A stretch of DNA of 24,239 nucleotides from a virus. The position numbers were made by a program, and so were the translations under genes. Under the pieces are notes generated by a model. That model saw nothing but the letters and a program-made list of their open reading frames with translations, did no database searches and was not told where the DNA came from. How positions within the stretch are numbered: the stretch's first letter is position 1; every line of letters begins with the position of its first letter. The stretch lies in the IMG/VR virus record IMGVR_UViG_3300037189_011725, positions 1-24,239 of that record, one strand, 5' to 3'. Below are positions 1 through 24,239 of the stretch, piece by piece.

Positions 1-117
1 AAGCTGCGTAGTGAACGCGCCGGACCTAAATCGCAAGTAAATGTGCAAATCAATGAAGGTGGAGACGGAACCAAGTACGGAGCACTTATTTCTAGGCTCC
101 TAGGAGATAAACTATAA
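1..117 (+). CDS. C-terminal fragment of unidentified gene upstream of the terminase (possible small terminase subunit)
   Basis: The frame beginning at base 1 is open for 38 codons and ends at TAA 115-117. The gene starts left of the window, so this is only the C-terminus: a basic stretch (KLRSERAGPK), then SQVNVQINEGGDG and a short C-terminal helix ending LLGDKL. I do not recognise a domain. A polar segment with a VNVQIN-type strand near the end, lying a few hundred bases before a large terminase gene, fits a small terminase subunit, but that rests on position only. The stop lies 10 bases before the GTG of the next gene, which suggests the same transcript. Confidence 0.5.
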   Translation, partial: KLRSERAGPKSQVNVQINEGGDGTKYGALISRLLGDKL

Positions 118-127
118 GGAGTTTAAG

Positions 128-403
128 GTGGACGTAGTAAAATTAATAGGTGAAGTAGGATTCCCAATTGCTGCGGCCGTTAGCGCAGGTTATTTTGTAT
201 TTTTAACCCTAAAGTTTATTTTAGCTGGAGTAACCAGCGGAGTGCACAATCTTGCACAAATTACAGAAAGACTAGACGCCAGAATAGACACCATGACAGC
301 TCAGCTAGAGCGTATTGATACCCGTGTAAGCTATGCACTAGGCCTAAGCCCAGACTATAGCAGAATGGCTCGCAGTGAGTTAAAAGATTTAAGGAAAGAC
401 TGA
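128..403 (+). CDS. Small one-helix membrane protein with coiled-coil tail, paralogue A (holin-like candidate)
   Basis: A 91-residue protein starting at GTG 128, with AAGGAG (116-121) nearby as ribosome binding site. Residues about 10-35 form one hydrophobic helix (GFPIAAAVSAGYFVFLTLKF). The rest is a soluble helix with heptad-like spacing (ITERLDARIDTMTAQLERIDTRV) and a charged C-terminus. The layout of a short N-terminus, one membrane helix and a cytoplasmic coiled coil is seen in BhlA/UviB-type holins and in unnamed small phage membrane proteins, so a lysis or membrane role is possible but not shown. It shares MD-V, GFPI-AA and GYF with the next gene, so the two are paralogues. Its stop overlaps the next start in TGATG, a sign of translational coupling. 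Confidence 0.8.
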   Translation: MDVVKLIGEVGFPIAAAVSAGYFVFLTLKFILAGVTSGVHNLAQITERLDARIDTMTAQLERIDTRVSYALGLSPDYSRMARSELKDLRKD

Positions 404-690
404 TGGATATGGTAGAAATTGTAAACCGCTATGGTTTTCCTATTTTAGCAGCTATGGGCATGGGGTATTTTATTTACCATGTATGGAACTGGGTAGTCAC
501 AGACATAAAACCTACTATAGGCAAAGCTACCAATACTTTAATTAACTTAATCGACCGTGTACGTGTCTTAGACAACGATTTGATCAGACTAAACGAAAAA
601 GTAAATACTGTGCTACAACTACGGGGTAAATTAATTGAAGTAGAGCGTATAGAAGCTAATAAAAAAATAAATGAGGGTCATGGTGCTTAA
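403..690 (+). CDS. Small one-helix membrane protein with coiled-coil tail, paralogue B
   Basis: A 95-residue protein whose ATG shares one base with the previous stop (TGATG, 401-405), so it probably relies on ribosomes finishing the upstream gene. Residues about 8-33 are a membrane helix (YGFPILAAMGMGYFIYHVWNWVV). A mostly helical soluble part follows (LIDRVRVLDNDLIRLNEKVNTVLQL). It aligns with the preceding protein through the GFPI-AA-GYF helix and the L-R-V-L-L coiled coil. I know this type of protein from phage genomes next to terminase genes, without a proven function. A heteromeric pair in the inner membrane, for example holin and partner, is an inference. The 3' end overlaps the start region of the terminase. 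Confidence 0.8.
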   Translation: MDMVEIVNRYGFPILAAMGMGYFIYHVWNWVVTDIKPTIGKATNTLINLIDRVRVLDNDLIRLNEKVNTVLQLRGKLIEVERIEANKKINEGHGA

Positions 691-1972
691 AGTTAGTCGA
701 GACGATGTAGACTGCGACGAAATCACAGAGTTTCCTGTAGAAACCAGATTTATTAAACTGCCAATTGAAAACTACTTAAAATTGTTGGGTGCTTGGGACA
801 CCATGAATCGTCCACAGATTGCCTTAATCAACGCAATCAATAATCCCAAGTATAGATTTGTATGCGCTGCACTTGCTAGACGACTAGGCAAAACCTACAT
901 CAGTAATATTATTGCACAGCTAGTCTCACTAGTGCCCGGTTGCAATGTGCTTATTATTTCACCTAACTATAATCTCTCCAGTATTTCATTTGAACTACAG
1001 CGCAGGTTTATCAGACACTTTGACCTAGAAGTAGAGCGCGATAACTTAAAAGACAAAGTTGTAGAACTATCAAATGGCAGCACTATCCGCATGGGCTCAC
1101 TATCAACTGTAGACAGCACAGTTGGACGCAGTTATCAAATTATCTTATTTGACGAGGCTGCACTAGGCGATGATGGCGAGTCAGCATTTAACGTGCAGCT
1201 GCGCCCCACACTAGACCGACCTAACAGCAAAGCTATTTTTATTTCAACACCCCGCGGTCAGCAAAACTGGTTTAGTCGTTTTTATCAACGTGGTTTTGGT
1301 AGTGAGTATCCTGAGTGGTGCAGCCTACAAGCAGACTACACTGAAAATTCTAGAATGGCAGAGTCTGATGTGGCAGAAGCTCGCCGATCGATGTCAAAAG
1401 CTGAATTTGAGCAAGAATACTTAGCCAGCTTTAATGTGTTTGAGGGTCAAATTTATAATTTTGATCGTGAAGCGGGAGTTGTAGAATATGCGCATCAAGA
1501 CGGTTGTGAGTACATTGCTGGGTGTGATCCCGGCTATCGCGATGCTACTGCTTTCGTGGTTATTAGTTATAATCCTGTTAGTGACCAGTTTCATATCGTA
1601 GATGAATACCTAAAAAGTGAAGCTACCACAGACAAGCATGCTGTAGCATTTCGTGAGTATATTGACAAGTGGCAGGTAGAAGTATTATTTATTGATTCGG
1701 CAGCAGCACAATTTGCTGGTGACCTTGCATATACTTATAACATTTCTACTACTAAAGCTAAAAAAGACGTTTTACCCGGTATTGCCTATGTACAAACACT
1801 AGTAGAAACTGGCAGGCTAAAAATTGCTCCGCACTGTACAAACGTCTTAGACGTTATGGACCAATATCGTTGGGACAAACGTGAAACATTGACTCGGGAA
1901 AAGCCAGTGCACGATAAGTACTCACACATGGCTGACGCCATTCGTTATGCACTGTATACATACACTGTCTAG
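671..1972 (+). CDS. terL: Large terminase subunit (DNA-packaging ATPase and nuclease)
   Basis: Motor subunit that pumps DNA through the portal and cuts the concatemer. Numbered from ATG 671, the N-terminal ATPase has a Walker A-type ALARRLGKT (about residues 67-75, similar to T4 gp17 SRQLGKT) and a Walker B IILFDEAA with D161 and E162. The C-terminal RNase H-like nuclease shows three acidic positions in order: D286 (GCDPGY), D342 (LFIDSAA) and D422 (SHMADAIRYAL). The set looks complete at 433 residues. The start is uncertain: ATG 671 has no clear ribosome binding site, while GAGG (673-676) sits better for GTG 683 (ATG 680 is also possible). All three overlap or nearly abut the previous gene, as expected for coupling. 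The stop TAG is followed at once by a promoter. Confidence 0.96.
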   Translation: MRVMVLKVSRDDVDCDEITEFPVETRFIKLPIENYLKLLGAWDTMNRPQIALINAINNPKYRFVCAALARRLGKTYISNIIAQLVSLVPGCNVLIISPNYNLSSISFELQRRFIRHFDLEVERDNLKDKVVELSNGSTIRMGSLSTVDSTVGRSYQIILFDEAALGDDGESAFNVQLRPTLDRPNSKAIFISTPRGQQNWFSRFYQRGFGSEYPEWCSLQADYTENSRMAESDVAEARRSMSKAEFEQEYLASFNVFEGQIYNFDREAGVVEYAHQDGCEYIAGCDPGYRDATAFVVISYNPVSDQFHIVDEYLKSEATTDKHAVAFREYIDKWQVEVLFIDSAAAQFAGDLAYTYNISTTKAKKDVLPGIAYVQTLVETGRLKIAPHCTNVLDVMDQYRWDKRETLTREKPVHDKYSHMADAIRYALYTYTV

Positions 1973-1974
1973 GT

Positions 1975-2018
1975 CATAAAAATTTTATGTTGACTTCGTC
2001 ATGCTTTGGGTGTACAAT
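1975..2018 (+). promoter_or_regulatory. Sigma-70 promoter P1 with A/T-rich palindrome at the -35, upstream of the Dps-like gene
   Basis: TTGACT (1990-1995), a 17-base spacer and TACAAT (2013-2018) match the sigma-70 consensus at 10 of 12 positions. The start of transcription should lie near 2025 and the next ATG is at 2054. Directly upstream, 1975-1989 is an odd-length palindrome, CATAAAA-A-TTTTATG, abutting the -35; it could be an UP element or an operator. The 9-mer AAATTTTAT (1980-1988) recurs at the same place in the second promoter of this window. Confidence 0.8.
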
Positions 2019-2053: not shown

Positions 2054-2494
2054 ATGGACCGAACTGAATACTACCTAGAACTTAAACGCGTTTTTGCCAG
2101 TGAGTTTAGCTTTTACCTAAAAGCTGCTAATTTTCATTGGAATGTAGAAGGCGAACCTTTTTACCAACTACACTTAATGTTAGAGCGCATCTATAACGAA
2201 GTTTTAGAGTCCATTGATACCTATGCTGAAGAATTGCGTGCCCTACAAATTGTTACACCTGCTAGTCTATCACAGTTTTCACAGTTAACATATATTAGTG
2301 ATGAAAATGCTCCAGGCGACTGGAAAGGCCTACTGCAAGAACTGCTAATGGATTCAGATATGATGGCACTAAAATTTCAGCAGCTATTTATGGTGGCTGA
2401 AGAATTTGGTGATCATGGACTGTCAAACTTCTTGGCAGATCGTCAAGATGCACACAAAAAACATAGTTGGATGTTACGCGCAAGTTTAAAATAA
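2054..2494 (+). CDS. dps: Dps-like ferritin (DNA-protection / iron-oxidising family)
   Basis: A 146-residue Dps-family protein. Dps forms 12-subunit shells that oxidise Fe2+ with peroxide and store it, protecting DNA. The signature NFHWNVEG then FYQLHLMLERIY then IDTYAEELRAL is present. Ferroxidase ligands fall at H28, H40, E44, D55 and E59, with spacings 12, 4, 15 and 4, identical to E. coli H51, H63, D67, D78 and E82; only the third is changed (Asp to Glu). The N-terminus is about 23 residues shorter than in E. coli and lacks its Lys-rich DNA-binding tail, though the C-terminus is basic. The gene is the first after promoter P1, with no strong ribosome binding site, and abuts the HNH gene. 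A Dps inside a phage late operon is unusual. Confidence 0.9.
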   Translation: MDRTEYYLELKRVFASEFSFYLKAANFHWNVEGEPFYQLHLMLERIYNEVLESIDTYAEELRALQIVTPASLSQFSQLTYISDENAPGDWKGLLQELLMDSDMMALKFQQLFMVAEEFGDHGLSNFLADRQDAHKKHSWMLRASLK

Positions 2495-2926
2495 ATGGCA
2501 AAAAATACAAACAAACGGATTCCCGTCAAACACGTTAGAGATAAAGCCAAGTCGGCTTATGAAAAGCAAGACACTTGCTATATTTGTGCAACTAGTCAGG
2601 ACTTGGAATTGCATCACCTGCACAGTGTTACCCTGTTGTTAGAAAACTGGGCACGACGTAAAGGTTATGATATTTCAACTGATGAGGGAATTTTAGCTGT
2701 TAGGGACGAGTTTATTAGTGAACATCATAGTGAGTTATACGAGCAGGTTTACACCCTATGTAATCCTCATCATATAGCGCTCCATGGTGTGTACGGTAAA
2801 ACTCCTCAGCCTGGCAGCGAACCCAAACAAGCACGCTGGATTGAAATTCAACGTGAAAAAGTTGCTAATGGCGGTCGTGCTGTTCCTAAGCAAAGCTATG
2901 GAAGTTTCTTTAGCGAATTTACTTAG
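2495..2926 (+). CDS. HNH-type nuclease, terminase-associated
   Basis: A 143-residue protein with an HNH/zinc-finger layout: C28-x2-C31, then LELHHLHS (H40, H41, H43), a helical insert of about 40 residues, and YTLCNPHHIALHG (C89, H92, H93, H97). C28, C31, C89 and probably H92 look like zinc ligands, with H40/H41 and H97 as active-site candidates; a fourth cysteine is missing. HNH proteins next to the terminase help cut packaging ends in HK97-like phages (gp74), and its site between terminase and portal fits that job. A free-standing homing endonuclease is the alternative. Its ATG follows the Dps stop directly (TAA-ATG), so it is coupled to Dps and shares P1. Confidence 0.8.
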   Translation: MAKNTNKRIPVKHVRDKAKSAYEKQDTCYICATSQDLELHHLHSVTLLLENWARRKGYDISTDEGILAVRDEFISEHHSELYEQVYTLCNPHHIALHGVYGKTPQPGSEPKQARWIEIQREKVANGGRAVPKQSYGSFFSEFT

Positions 2927-2934
2927 GATAAATC

Positions 2935-4122
2935 ATGGGTTGGATTAATAGTAGTGTAGAATGGATTCGCGAAAAGCTGAATCCTGCACAAGTTAGAATT
3001 GCACAAGGTGAGGGAACGCACATTCCCACAACTTCAAAGATTAGCTATCAACAAGCATTTAGAAATCTAGAAGTTGTTAATCGTGGTGTAAATATGGTTG
3101 TTAGCGCAGCCGCGTCACTAGACTATGACGTAAAAGACAAGTTAAACGAAGGCATTGTTAGTGGTATGAGGCAAAAGCAGTTAGTAAACTTGCTTAACTT
3201 TAGACCTAATCCCTATCAAAGCGTACAAGAATTTCGTCAGGCCATTTTTAGTGACCTGATCTTAGAAGGCAACGTATTTATACACTTTGATGGTACTTTT
3301 ATGTATCATCTACCTGCACAATATGTAGAAATACTTACTGATACTAAAACATTTATTCGTGGTTATCGTTACAGCGGTTACATTGAGTTTGAAGAAAGAG
3401 ATGTGTTTCACTTTCGCGACTTAAGTTCACAAAGTATCTACCGCGGTGCTAGTCGCCTAGAAGCTGCACAACACAGTATTGACCTACTTAATTCAATGCA
3501 TCAGTTTCAAACACAGTTTTTTGATAACGGTGCCACCTTTGGTTTTGTACTTACCAGCGATAACACACTATCACAAGTAGCCAAAGAAAAAACTATTCAG
3601 TACTGGCTGCAACGTTATAGTAATAAAACTGGTGGCAAACGCCCTGTTATCCTAGACAGCGGTTTAAAACCACATTCAATTAGTAATAACAGCTACAAAG
3701 ATCTAGACTTTGACTTGGCAGTTAAAACACACAACGATTTGCTATTACAAGTAATTGGTGTACCGCCCATTTTACTAGACGGTGGTAACAATGCTAATAT
3801 TTCGCCTAACTTGCGCCTGTTCTATCTAGAAACAGTAATGCCTATAATTAGAAAATTTATTAGTGCACTAGAACGTTATTATGGATACGATGTAGATGCA
3901 ATTACTAGTAATGTAAGTGCACTACAACCAGAATTAAAAGACATTGCAACTTATCATCAAACACTAGTAAATGGTGGTATTATCACACCCAACGAGGCTC
4001 GTGTAGAATTGCGATATGAAAAAATGCCGGGTCACGATGAACTGCGTGTTCCTGCTAATATTGCTGGTAGTGCTGTAAACCCAGCACAGGGCGGTCGTCC
4101 CACCGCAACCCCTAAAGAATAA
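2935..4122 (+). CDS. Portal protein (HK97-type)
   Basis: A 395-residue protein of the HK97 portal family, which forms the ring at the capsid vertex through which DNA enters and on which the neck is built. Family marks: an N-terminal segment with NRGVNMVVSAAASL, the core LLNFRPNPYQSVQEFRQAIFSDLILEGNVFIHF, the clip/stem region DVFHFRDLSSQSIYRGASRLEAAQHSI, and the C-terminal QVIGVPPILLDG followed by LRLFYLETVMPIIRKFISALE and GIITPNEAR. Length is normal for the family. AGGA (2925-2928) ends 6 bases before the ATG and overlaps the HNH stop. The end is Pro/Ala-rich (NPAQGGRPTATPKE). The next gene starts 12 bases on. Confidence 0.95.
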   Translation: MGWINSSVEWIREKLNPAQVRIAQGEGTHIPTTSKISYQQAFRNLEVVNRGVNMVVSAAASLDYDVKDKLNEGIVSGMRQKQLVNLLNFRPNPYQSVQEFRQAIFSDLILEGNVFIHFDGTFMYHLPAQYVEILTDTKTFIRGYRYSGYIEFEERDVFHFRDLSSQSIYRGASRLEAAQHSIDLLNSMHQFQTQFFDNGATFGFVLTSDNTLSQVAKEKTIQYWLQRYSNKTGGKRPVILDSGLKPHSISNNSYKDLDFDLAVKTHNDLLLQVIGVPPILLDGGNNANISPNLRLFYLETVMPIIRKFISALERYYGYDVDAITSNVSALQPELKDIATYHQTLVNGGIITPNEARVELRYEKMPGHDELRVPANIAGSAVNPAQGGRPTATPKE

Positions 4123-10694: not shown

Positions 10695-10734
10695 AAATTT
10701 TATAGTTGACAAGTTGTTGCCCCTGTGTTATAAT
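10695..10734 (+). promoter_or_regulatory. Perfect-consensus sigma-70 promoter P2 for the tape measure gene
   Basis: TTGACA (10706-10711), a 17-base spacer and TATAAT (10729-10734) match the consensus at all 12 positions with optimal spacing. AAATTTTAT (10695-10703) sits just upstream of the -35, as it does in P1 at 1980-1988. Transcription should begin near 10741, leaving a leader of about 60 bases before ATG 10800. This would make a very strong promoter for the host polymerase and suggests that tape measure, hub and fibre form their own transcript. Confidence 0.92.
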
Positions 10735-23300: not shown

Positions 23301-24239
23301 ATTGGACTGGTACTGCTTTAAATATTAAAACTGCTGGTGCTGTAACTATTGGCAATCCTACAGGTGCTAGACTGGTATGGGATGGTAGCGCTCTTAGTAT
23401 TTACAATAGTAGTAATACAGCTATTCTTACTGCTGGTAAACTAACTTGGACCGCAGTAGGTGATATACCTTATTCAGTAGTTGGTAATTTACTAGACACT
23501 AGTACTTGGGTAACTGGGGCTGATTATAGTGCTACTGGACCCGCAGGCTTTAATTTAAACCAAAATGCTACTAGTGAAAATTCTATTATAGTTGATATAG
23601 GACCAGACGGTACACCAAAACAAATTTGGAAGGCTTATAGTACAGAAAATTTTACTGGGTCAGAGGATCCTGATGGCGGCTGGAATACTAGCAATTTTAC
23701 TATTGATCATCTTAAACCCTATAGATTTAGTTGCTGGATAAAACGGGCCAGTAGTCAAGCTACTGGTAGTGCATGGTTAGGTCTTGGTGGAAATACAGTA
23801 ACTAATTTAGCTGGCGTTCTTAATAGCAATCCATATTTTATTGCTGGTTATGGACGTGTTTCTTTAATTCAAGATAGATGGTATTTATTTGTAGGATATG
23901 TATGGCCTAGTACATATACTGGTAATACTAATCTTGGTGGTATTTATGATGGTATTACTGGTGAATTAGTATATGCTGGAACTTCTTGGAAGTGGGTAAG
24001 TGGTCAAACTACCTCCATTCATAGATGTTATCAATACTACTCAAACATTGGTGATATACAGTACTTTTACGGACCTAGAGTAGACATTGCTGATGGCTCT
24101 GAACCTACTATTGAAATGTTATTGGCATTAGGTAAAGCTACTACCGCTGCTAGTACTGCTAATACTGCTGCTAATACTGCTAATACTGCTAGTACTACTG
24201 CCGGTACTGCTGCTAATACTGCTAATACTGCTGCTGGTA
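20357..24239 (+). CDS. Tail tip / receptor-binding fibre protein, truncated by the window edge
   Basis: Starts at ATG 20357, directly after the hub stop (TAA-ATG), and stays open to the last base, so at least 1,294 residues; the C-terminus is missing. Composition is Thr/Ser/Asn/Gly-rich with many short strands, like stacked Ig-like or fibre repeats. Junctions with Gly/Pro (QRQGMGGIQYG, PRGDPGINYW, NDGPTGNIGN) look like domain linkers. SALKVGNLSAITVNTGDLYVSG (codons near 23,039-23,104) recalls the C-terminal part of lambda gpJ. A three-copy IGN-WDGT repeat follows, then a lectin-like jelly-roll text (HLKPYRFSCWIKR, DRWYLFVGYVWPSTY, YFYGPRVDIADGSEPTIEMLLALG) that I know from phage fibres. It probably recognises the host surface. 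Confidence 0.85.
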   Translation, partial: MTTPVNSRRAALEATSPRILQVGDNYINLTVTSQQFKIGTDNQPNPASVTITANLVGVLAGTVTFNTNVVPNQFVAGTTFTGTIALNSNILTTINTPGVPAVGMELTGGNIQPGTYIVSGSGTNWIVSKTQTLATSAATLTGSPHTRSGNTLTITPAIMASDYVTVTASITYQNVTYTSAPVSITKIYNSIQARLSQTFKIYASYDDGTGYNIPLPISQLNSTDRIYLDLYNGDYAFNRGTAGNITYSPLANTVVAKNGLKVYLSSGDPSIDPTITGTSITTGNVYKIATTGNQTAFGAANNTVGTIFTATQNGTLTSGTVSIIFSAGQVIIEEDTPGSWTTLDPTNFTLTATRSGVNYSAIFNVSKQRQGMGGIQYGTISLYRWSAIDPSANQGALLPKGTSTYTWYSQSHVYNPTAVQGNLDSWTVAIPTKPTDNYTYLLWKITKSVQQQSARDVTIQTLTGITWTSDYKLTEVTTTSNEFVKTKTATLYQNGIGAAPDAPTGSAVYNWTTETLDVSGTSLNFWTVTIPAEQEGVALYTFNVDLIESKTTTSTTVYWDKGYSKLVTIYGKNSIVARFDNGTHAIPCDYLDSEASRNFSNSGTKLVAYDGTTVLTAISDDTVFSKGTYKVSTAADGVTVGTKTVGGTAGFTFGNITAATFASTTTGSITFTLTGQTLTGTAFTYKLVQTFTKTPRGDPGINYWIVTDASVISKSLGGAFTPSTITVTAKKSVAGVASDYAGWFKIYKNSDPAAVYTSNAAESSKTYTIPADTTQLKFRVYDSNPDAQTGSKIILDEEIVPVVNDGPTGNIGNSARRAYVKTTTTPASSGDNGPSTYTATGDALPRDNVWFTKDVATGRGVWASTPQQIAEGETLYQSDGIFVYGGNTTWGFPYISALKVGNLSAITVNTGDLYVSGSIRGGANSTKDSTIDLTTGSGYYISSTGSFRIGNPTTNYLKWDGTDLTINTTGAVKIGNTTNYFDWTGTALNIKTAGAVTIGNPTGARLVWDGSALSIYNSSNTAILTAGKLTWTAVGDIPYSVVGNLLDTSTWVTGADYSATGPAGFNLNQNATSENSIIVDIGPDGTPKQIWKAYSTENFTGSEDPDGGWNTSNFTIDHLKPYRFSCWIKRASSQATGSAWLGLGGNTVTNLAGVLNSNPYFIAGYGRVSLIQDRWYLFVGYVWPSTYTGNTNLGGIYDGITGELVYAGTSWKWVSGQTTSIHRCYQYYSNIGDIQYFYGPRVDIADGSEPTIEMLLALGKATTAASTANTAANTANTASTTAGTAANTANTAAG
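23201..23422 (+). repeat. Three tandem 24-25 codon repeats in the fibre gene
   Basis: Units start at 23201, 23276 and 23348, each beginning with codons for IGN and carrying a central WDGT / WTGT / WDGS motif and a GAV-type end in the first two. They encode IGNPTTNYLKWDGTDLTI, IGNTTNYFDWTGTALNI and IGNPTGARLVWDGSALSI. The units match at protein level more than at DNA level, so they are an old structural repeat, probably beta-hairpins stacked along the fibre axis. Confidence 0.85.
24137..24239 (+). repeat. Low-complexity Ala-Asn-Thr repeat at the right edge
   Basis: Short tandem units built on GCT-AAT-ACT encode strings such as TANTAANTANTA and continue past the window edge. They follow the lectin-like domain and probably form a helical linker or coiled coil in the fibre. 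The near-identical codons make this a likely place for length change by slippage or recombination, and for assembly errors. Confidence 0.85.

Follow-up and report, generated by a model that had tools for sequence, protein, structure and literature searches.

A Dps-family mini-ferritin gene in the head operon of an uncultured lineage of T5-like phages

The DNA analyzed here (the window) is an IMG/VR virus record of 24,239 bases, probably a fragment, and encodes among its packaging and head genes a Dps-family mini-ferritin with a predicted intact ferroxidase core (Table 1). The protein belongs to what appears to be an exclusively viral branch of the family, and comparison with related phages indicates that its gene is optional cargo, placed first in the head operon and served by a promoter shared with that operon. 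The product is probably an iron mini-cage that uses peroxide and, produced together with the head proteins, protects the infected cell and unpackaged DNA. Phage-borne Dps was already known from scattered single cases, including Lactobacillus plantarum phages (PMC6669764), 'Gratiaviridae' gut phages (PMC8008677), SU10 and other C3-morphotype podophages (PMC4281155), and cyanophage S-SRM01, all of them tailed phages. No paper on Dps in T5-like phages was found in the literature collection searched. The location in the head operon of an uncultured T5-like lineage, the shared promoter, the virus-only clade, and the fusions of Dps to other domains are new.

Table 1. Features of the window around the dps gene
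Feature	Position	Strand	Remarks
terS 3' end, terminase small subunit	1..117	+	Record begins inside the gene; end like terS of relatives
Two tandem related small membrane-protein genes	128-690		phrog_18771; weak holin match; between terS and terL
terL, terminase large subunit	671..1972	+	About 50% identical to Vibrio T5-like phages
Predicted sigma70-type head-operon promoter	1990..2018	+	TTGACT-17-TACAAT; conserved also in relatives without dps
dps	2054..2494	+	146-aa Dps-family mini-ferritin; predicted ligands H28, H40, D55, E59 and variable E44
HNH endonuclease gene	2495..2926	+	phrog_3497
Portal protein	2935..4122	+	Pfam/PHROG profile matches
S78 prohead protease fused to major capsid protein, 655 aa	4135..6102	+	Profile matches

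Fold and ferroxidase site of the phage Dps

The dps reading frame is intact, with an ATG at 2054 and a TAA at 2492-2494. Its product matched Pfam PF00210 (Ferritin) in a profile search (E = 1.9e-17), phrog_3636 (E = 9.5e-32), which carries the label 'DNA binding protein', and, among PDB sequences, the Dps protein PA0962 of P. aeruginosa (8ff9; E = 9e-23). An AlphaFold monomer model based on 49 aligned sequences (pLDDT 94.2, pTM 0.90) places helices at residues 3-30, 36-63, 72-78, 90-117, and 121-145, corresponding to a ferritin-like four-helix bundle with a short BC helix (72-78) and without the ferritin E helix. The closest fold in the PDB was also PA0962 (TM 0.91, rmsd 1.8), which ranked first among the 50 best fold matches, all of them Dps or Dps-like. 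Profile and structure searches consequently place the protein among the Dps proteins and not outside the ferritin-like fold, the latter being the outcome that the preliminary description of this DNA had named as a possible objection to its assignment.

The spacing of the putative ligands, H28-x11-H40-x3-E44-x10-D55-x3-E59, is that of E. coli Dps (H-x11-H-x3-D/E-x10-D-x3-E), as had been claimed for all five positions. H28, W29, H40, D55, and E59 were invariant wherever the column was readable in 123 viral and 80 cellular distinct sequences, a set drawn from searches that give the best 80 matches and in which one or two partial sequences leave alignment gaps. The sequence thus retains the ligand set predicted for an inter-subunit site, two His from one subunit and Asp and Glu from the other. 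Close homologues had not lost ligands: all five were kept at 77% identity or more, with Glu at position 44 (E. coli D67) in every readable copy. Only this fifth position drifts further out, being E/G/Q/D/A/K among more distant phage relatives and E/M/Q among cellular relatives. The Asp-to-Glu change pointed out earlier is therefore present but ordinary, as PA0962 and HP-NAP also carry Glu and the site varies, and it was rejected as a special feature of the window protein. Phage proteins with G, Q, A, or K at position 44 may therefore have a different second iron site.

PA0962, which shares 31% identity with the window Dps, also resembles it in having Glu at the E. coli D67 position and no basic tail. 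Its H37/H49/D64/E68 are spaced as H28/H40/D55/E59 of the phage protein, and His, Asp, and Glu ligands that match the invariant phage positions make up its Fe1 site (PMC10002758). However, PA0962 is a cellular protein and the phage protein has a shorter N-terminus; of the cross-linking Tyr network of PA0962 (Y27, Y30, Y81), the phage keeps Y30 (as Y21) but not Y27. Identity to the Dps of S-SRM01, a Bacteroides phage, and SU10-type phages was 26-32%.

E. coli Dps has a Lys-rich DNA-binding N-terminal tail and Asp at the fifth ligand position. In contrast, helix A of the modeled window protein begins at residue 3, in agreement with the previously noted absence of this tail, and neither terminus carries a basic extension. 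The product is also acidic (pI 4.84, net charge -10 per subunit).

The dps gene is under purifying selection: across 334 usable pairs of clade-1 sequences, the median dN/dS was 0.08. In proteins otherwise 65% alike, the last 28 residues are nearly unchanged, an invariance that partly reflects the peptide used to find those relatives. Synonymous sites diverge widely along the whole gene, including the C-terminal part. Therefore, the near-invariant C-terminus points to constraint at the protein level, and unusual conservation of the DNA itself was rejected.

Head operon, promoter, and insertion site

The gene order of the window, terS (partial)-two small membrane-protein genes-terL-dps-HNH-portal-protease/capsid fusion, is the same in all close relatives with contigs covering it, with the exception of L009, L023, and L024, which carry additional genes between terL and dps. 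The earlier placement of dps between packaging genes stands: terL lies on its 5' side, and HNH and then portal on its 3' side. The search that had been proposed, for the same gene between terL and portal elsewhere, found it in more than 50 TerL-distinct related contigs. The HNH start codon follows the dps stop codon with zero gap, so co-transcription is expected. The small membrane-protein pair (128-690) is missing in several close relatives.

TerL and the head gene order are T5-like when compared with Vibrio Demerecviridae phages. Vibrio phage 234P1 of this family has the order terS-terL-HNH/nicking endonuclease-portal-protease-capsid and a TerL about 50% identical to that of the window, and the counterpart of the HNH gene is annotated there as 'nicking endonuclease'. 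However, 234P1 has no dps between terL and HNH, and its prohead protease and capsid are separate genes, whereas they are fused in the window. Matches to T5-type head completion and tail proteins were also found (PF24163, E = 1.5e-16; PF23818, E = 1.4e-36), while a match to PF25747 (T5_p143) fell below its cut-off. The close relatives all come from metagenomes, and the majority of records are fragmentary. The related records extend to 99-102 kb, as compared with about 100-120 kb, including long terminal repeats, expected of a T5-like phage and 24 kb for the window fragment. No integrase was detected in 18 related records of up to 345 kb, and a temperate lifestyle was rejected. Judged by these genes, the phage is a lytic T5-like siphophage of bacteria.

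Upstream of dps, a -35-type hexamer (TTGACT, 1990-1995) is separated by 17 nt from TACAAT (2013-2018), the end of which lies 35 nt from the dps start. Loose promoter matches in the dps region were no commoner than in shuffled sequences, and therefore a promoter match by itself means little. Relatives were gathered by TerL, and the junction 3' of terL was read and scored for the promoter (out of 12). Scores of at least 10 were obtained in 68 of 68 distinct junctions and of at least 11 in 39, compared with 4% and 0.2%, respectively, of shuffled sequences. Across the 68 junctions, the two hexamers and a few positions of the spacer hardly change, while the remaining spacer varies. This conservation indicates that the predicted promoter is real. 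In 19 of the 68 junctions dps is lacking and the promoter stands directly before the HNH gene (relatives keeping it in this way include L131, L134, L137, L138, L148-L151, and L153); in L134, the short leader known before dps in sister phages persists although dps itself is gone. As dps-less relatives keep the promoter before HNH, it is that of the head operon and not of dps. The preliminary description was thus right that a strong promoter precedes the gene, but this promoter is not specific to dps. Late expression of dps would follow only from its gene position. A sigma70 promoter of perfect consensus sequence (TTGACA-17-TATAAT with TG) was also observed at 10706-10734, about 65 nt 5' of a 2674-aa tape-measure gene.

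Many T5-like relatives lack dps at the terL/HNH junction, so the gene is not essential; the genomes compared here indicate that it is optional cargo at an insertion hotspot. Other cargo consists mostly of minus-strand GIY-YIG-motif genes and, in L009, of a 175-aa gene; inserts were seen in L009, L097, L098, L100, L103, L106, L109, L115, L124, L139, and L511:1196-1819. Mapping dps presence onto a 76-sequence TerL tree requires 7 changes, at least 3 of which are forced by well-supported branches. All dps genes at the junction form one clade (SH-aLRT 97) nested in a viral-only clade (97), which is separate from 41 proteobacterial and other PA0962-type sequences; the window clade is also separate from the known phage Dps in the tree. 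The best cellular match to the window Dps among the matches listed is 42% identical, a closer cellular gene being possible. With this match and with the viral sequences in one clade, recent capture from a host is not supported. The correlation between TerL and Dps distances is 0.85 over all relatives, as against 0.18 within the closest group, which suggests exchange among close relatives. The overall pattern fits one acquisition and several losses, together with such exchange.

Possible roles during infection

In the reading we consider probable, a lytic T5-like siphophage lineage acquired dps, which inserted at the terL/HNH junction. The gene would thereby have come to stand first behind a strong host-sigma70 promoter that was already driving the HNH-portal-capsid head operon. 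Dps would then be made together with the head proteins, and its subunits, modeled here as monomers, would assemble into a dodecamer that uses hydrogen peroxide to oxidize and store Fe2+ at inter-subunit His/His/Asp/Glu sites. While heads are being assembled and filled, iron storage of this kind could reduce Fenton damage both to the dying cell and to phage DNA that still awaits packaging. PA0962 oxidizes Fe2+ with H2O2, and its deletion sensitizes cells to H2O2 (PMC10002758). In Lactobacillus phages and SU10/GAP52, dps lies among replication or middle genes, whereas dps of the window opens the head operon. Iron and peroxide control during head assembly and DNA packaging thereby becomes a testable part of infection.

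Other roles that do not require a place in the virion are less easily reconciled with these data. PA0962 cleaves DNA in vitro with divalent cations by a mechanism that is not known (PMC10002758), and the gene adjoining dps encodes an HNH (nicking-type) endonuclease; a PA0962-like 12-mer could accordingly nick or degrade host DNA beside the HNH enzyme. However, the window Dps is strongly acidic and HNH is kept in relatives without dps, and we regard this role as quite improbable. The chance that the protein condenses or shields phage DNA or compacts host DNA like E. coli Dps appears remote, the family name and the PHROG label notwithstanding, since an acidic protein without a basic tail is unlikely to act in this way and DNA binding is not universal in Dps, depending in some on basic tails (PMC10002758). 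The earlier suggestion of host DNA condensation is disfavored on the same grounds. It is scarcely credible that dps is a selfish moron, a passenger with its own promoter and no function in infection. Patchy presence on the TerL tree and other cargo at the same junction would suit such a passenger, but its promoter should be absent from dps-less relatives, which in fact retain it, and this reading was rejected; the low dN/dS (about 0.08) and invariant ligands also argue against it.

A Dps cage in or on the capsid, shielding packaged DNA or delivering an iron- and peroxide-handling protein to the next host, seems unlikely, although several observations point toward it. The dps gene opens the head operon across the lineage, and four related contigs (L420, L422, L424, and L426) encode fusion proteins with a Dps domain joined C-terminally to a domain of roughly 118 residues that matches part of phrog_2859 (E = 1.7e-31). 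A phrog_2859-type domain also occurs inside an open reading frame annotated as the major capsid protein in cyanophage S-CBS1 and Roseobacter phage CRP-406 and, in Vibrio phage 1.122.A, inside one that precedes the capsid gene by two genes, and is in this sense head-protein associated. L420 sits in a T5-like record (TerL 72%). The structure predicted for the fusion protein was unusable (pLDDT 47). A fold search of viral models (BFVD) found Dps domains inside longer proteins, three of them annotated 'Prohead protease'; no Dps-protease fusion was present among the first viral matches, and the fusions turned up only in searches with a second Dps type. The Dps-domain protein of SU10 was detected by mass spectrometry in concentrated phage (PMC4281155), and T4-like relatives have dps among proteins that share targeting-like N-termini. 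These links to the head are associations. However, the SU10 sample was not CsCl purified and also held middle-gene proteins (PMC4281155), the window Dps has neither a fused domain nor a targeting leader, and a 9-nm cage in a packed head would presumably cost DNA space. In G006 and G062, moreover, Dps has collagen-like genes as neighbors, at a distance from the head genes. Similarly doubtful is the wider proposal that a virus-only Dps has taken on a head-associated role, with expression from the head operon in T5-like phages, fusion to a mobile capsid-polyprotein domain in relatives, and a cage or iron core carried in or on virions. A finding of Dps in virions would be relevant to the question of how phages obtain their iron and carry it.

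Dps and other genes elsewhere in related phages

Both G006 and G062 lack Dps at the terL junction. As these relatives carry Dps elsewhere, the head-operon position is not required, which weakens the virion or packaging link hinted at in the preliminary description, whereas the fusions lend that link indirect support. Rubrerythrin was encoded in the T5-like related records G005, G006, and G008. Although this sample is small and consists mostly of fragment records, such recurring redox diiron genes favor selection for iron and peroxide control over selection for an exact position. The viral Dps lineage is long-lived, keeping its ferroxidase site and recurring in T5-like phages and in T4-like or other large phages.

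Rubrerythrin genes of T5-like relatives were located at L409:778-1230, L410:1645-2097, and L411:1024-1497, and rubrerythrin was also present in several large phages. One or two Dps genes lie beside collagen-like (tail-fibre-like) proteins at L408:1639-2091, L421:4001-5487, and L420:628-3382. In the T4-like relatives (L030-L081 loci, e.g., L034:1477-10426), unrelated proteins encoded near dps have short N-terminal sequences in common (MLLRELF, MRIRELLE, MKIKELLE, MNIRDLL), which resemble leaders for capsid targeting.

Genes for a calcineurin-like metallophosphoesterase (about 260 aa) and then a GT4 glycosyltransferase (about 333 aa) were found 5' of terS at L011:373-2265, and the pair is also present in L002, L018, L022, L028, and others. 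A literature search found no paper on this phage pair, which we take to resemble the plcP-agt lipid-remodeling genes of phosphate-starved bacteria. At the 3' end of the window (24140-24239), a triplet-like repeat tract (gctaatact...) lies in a long tail-fibre-like frame that runs off the end of the record.
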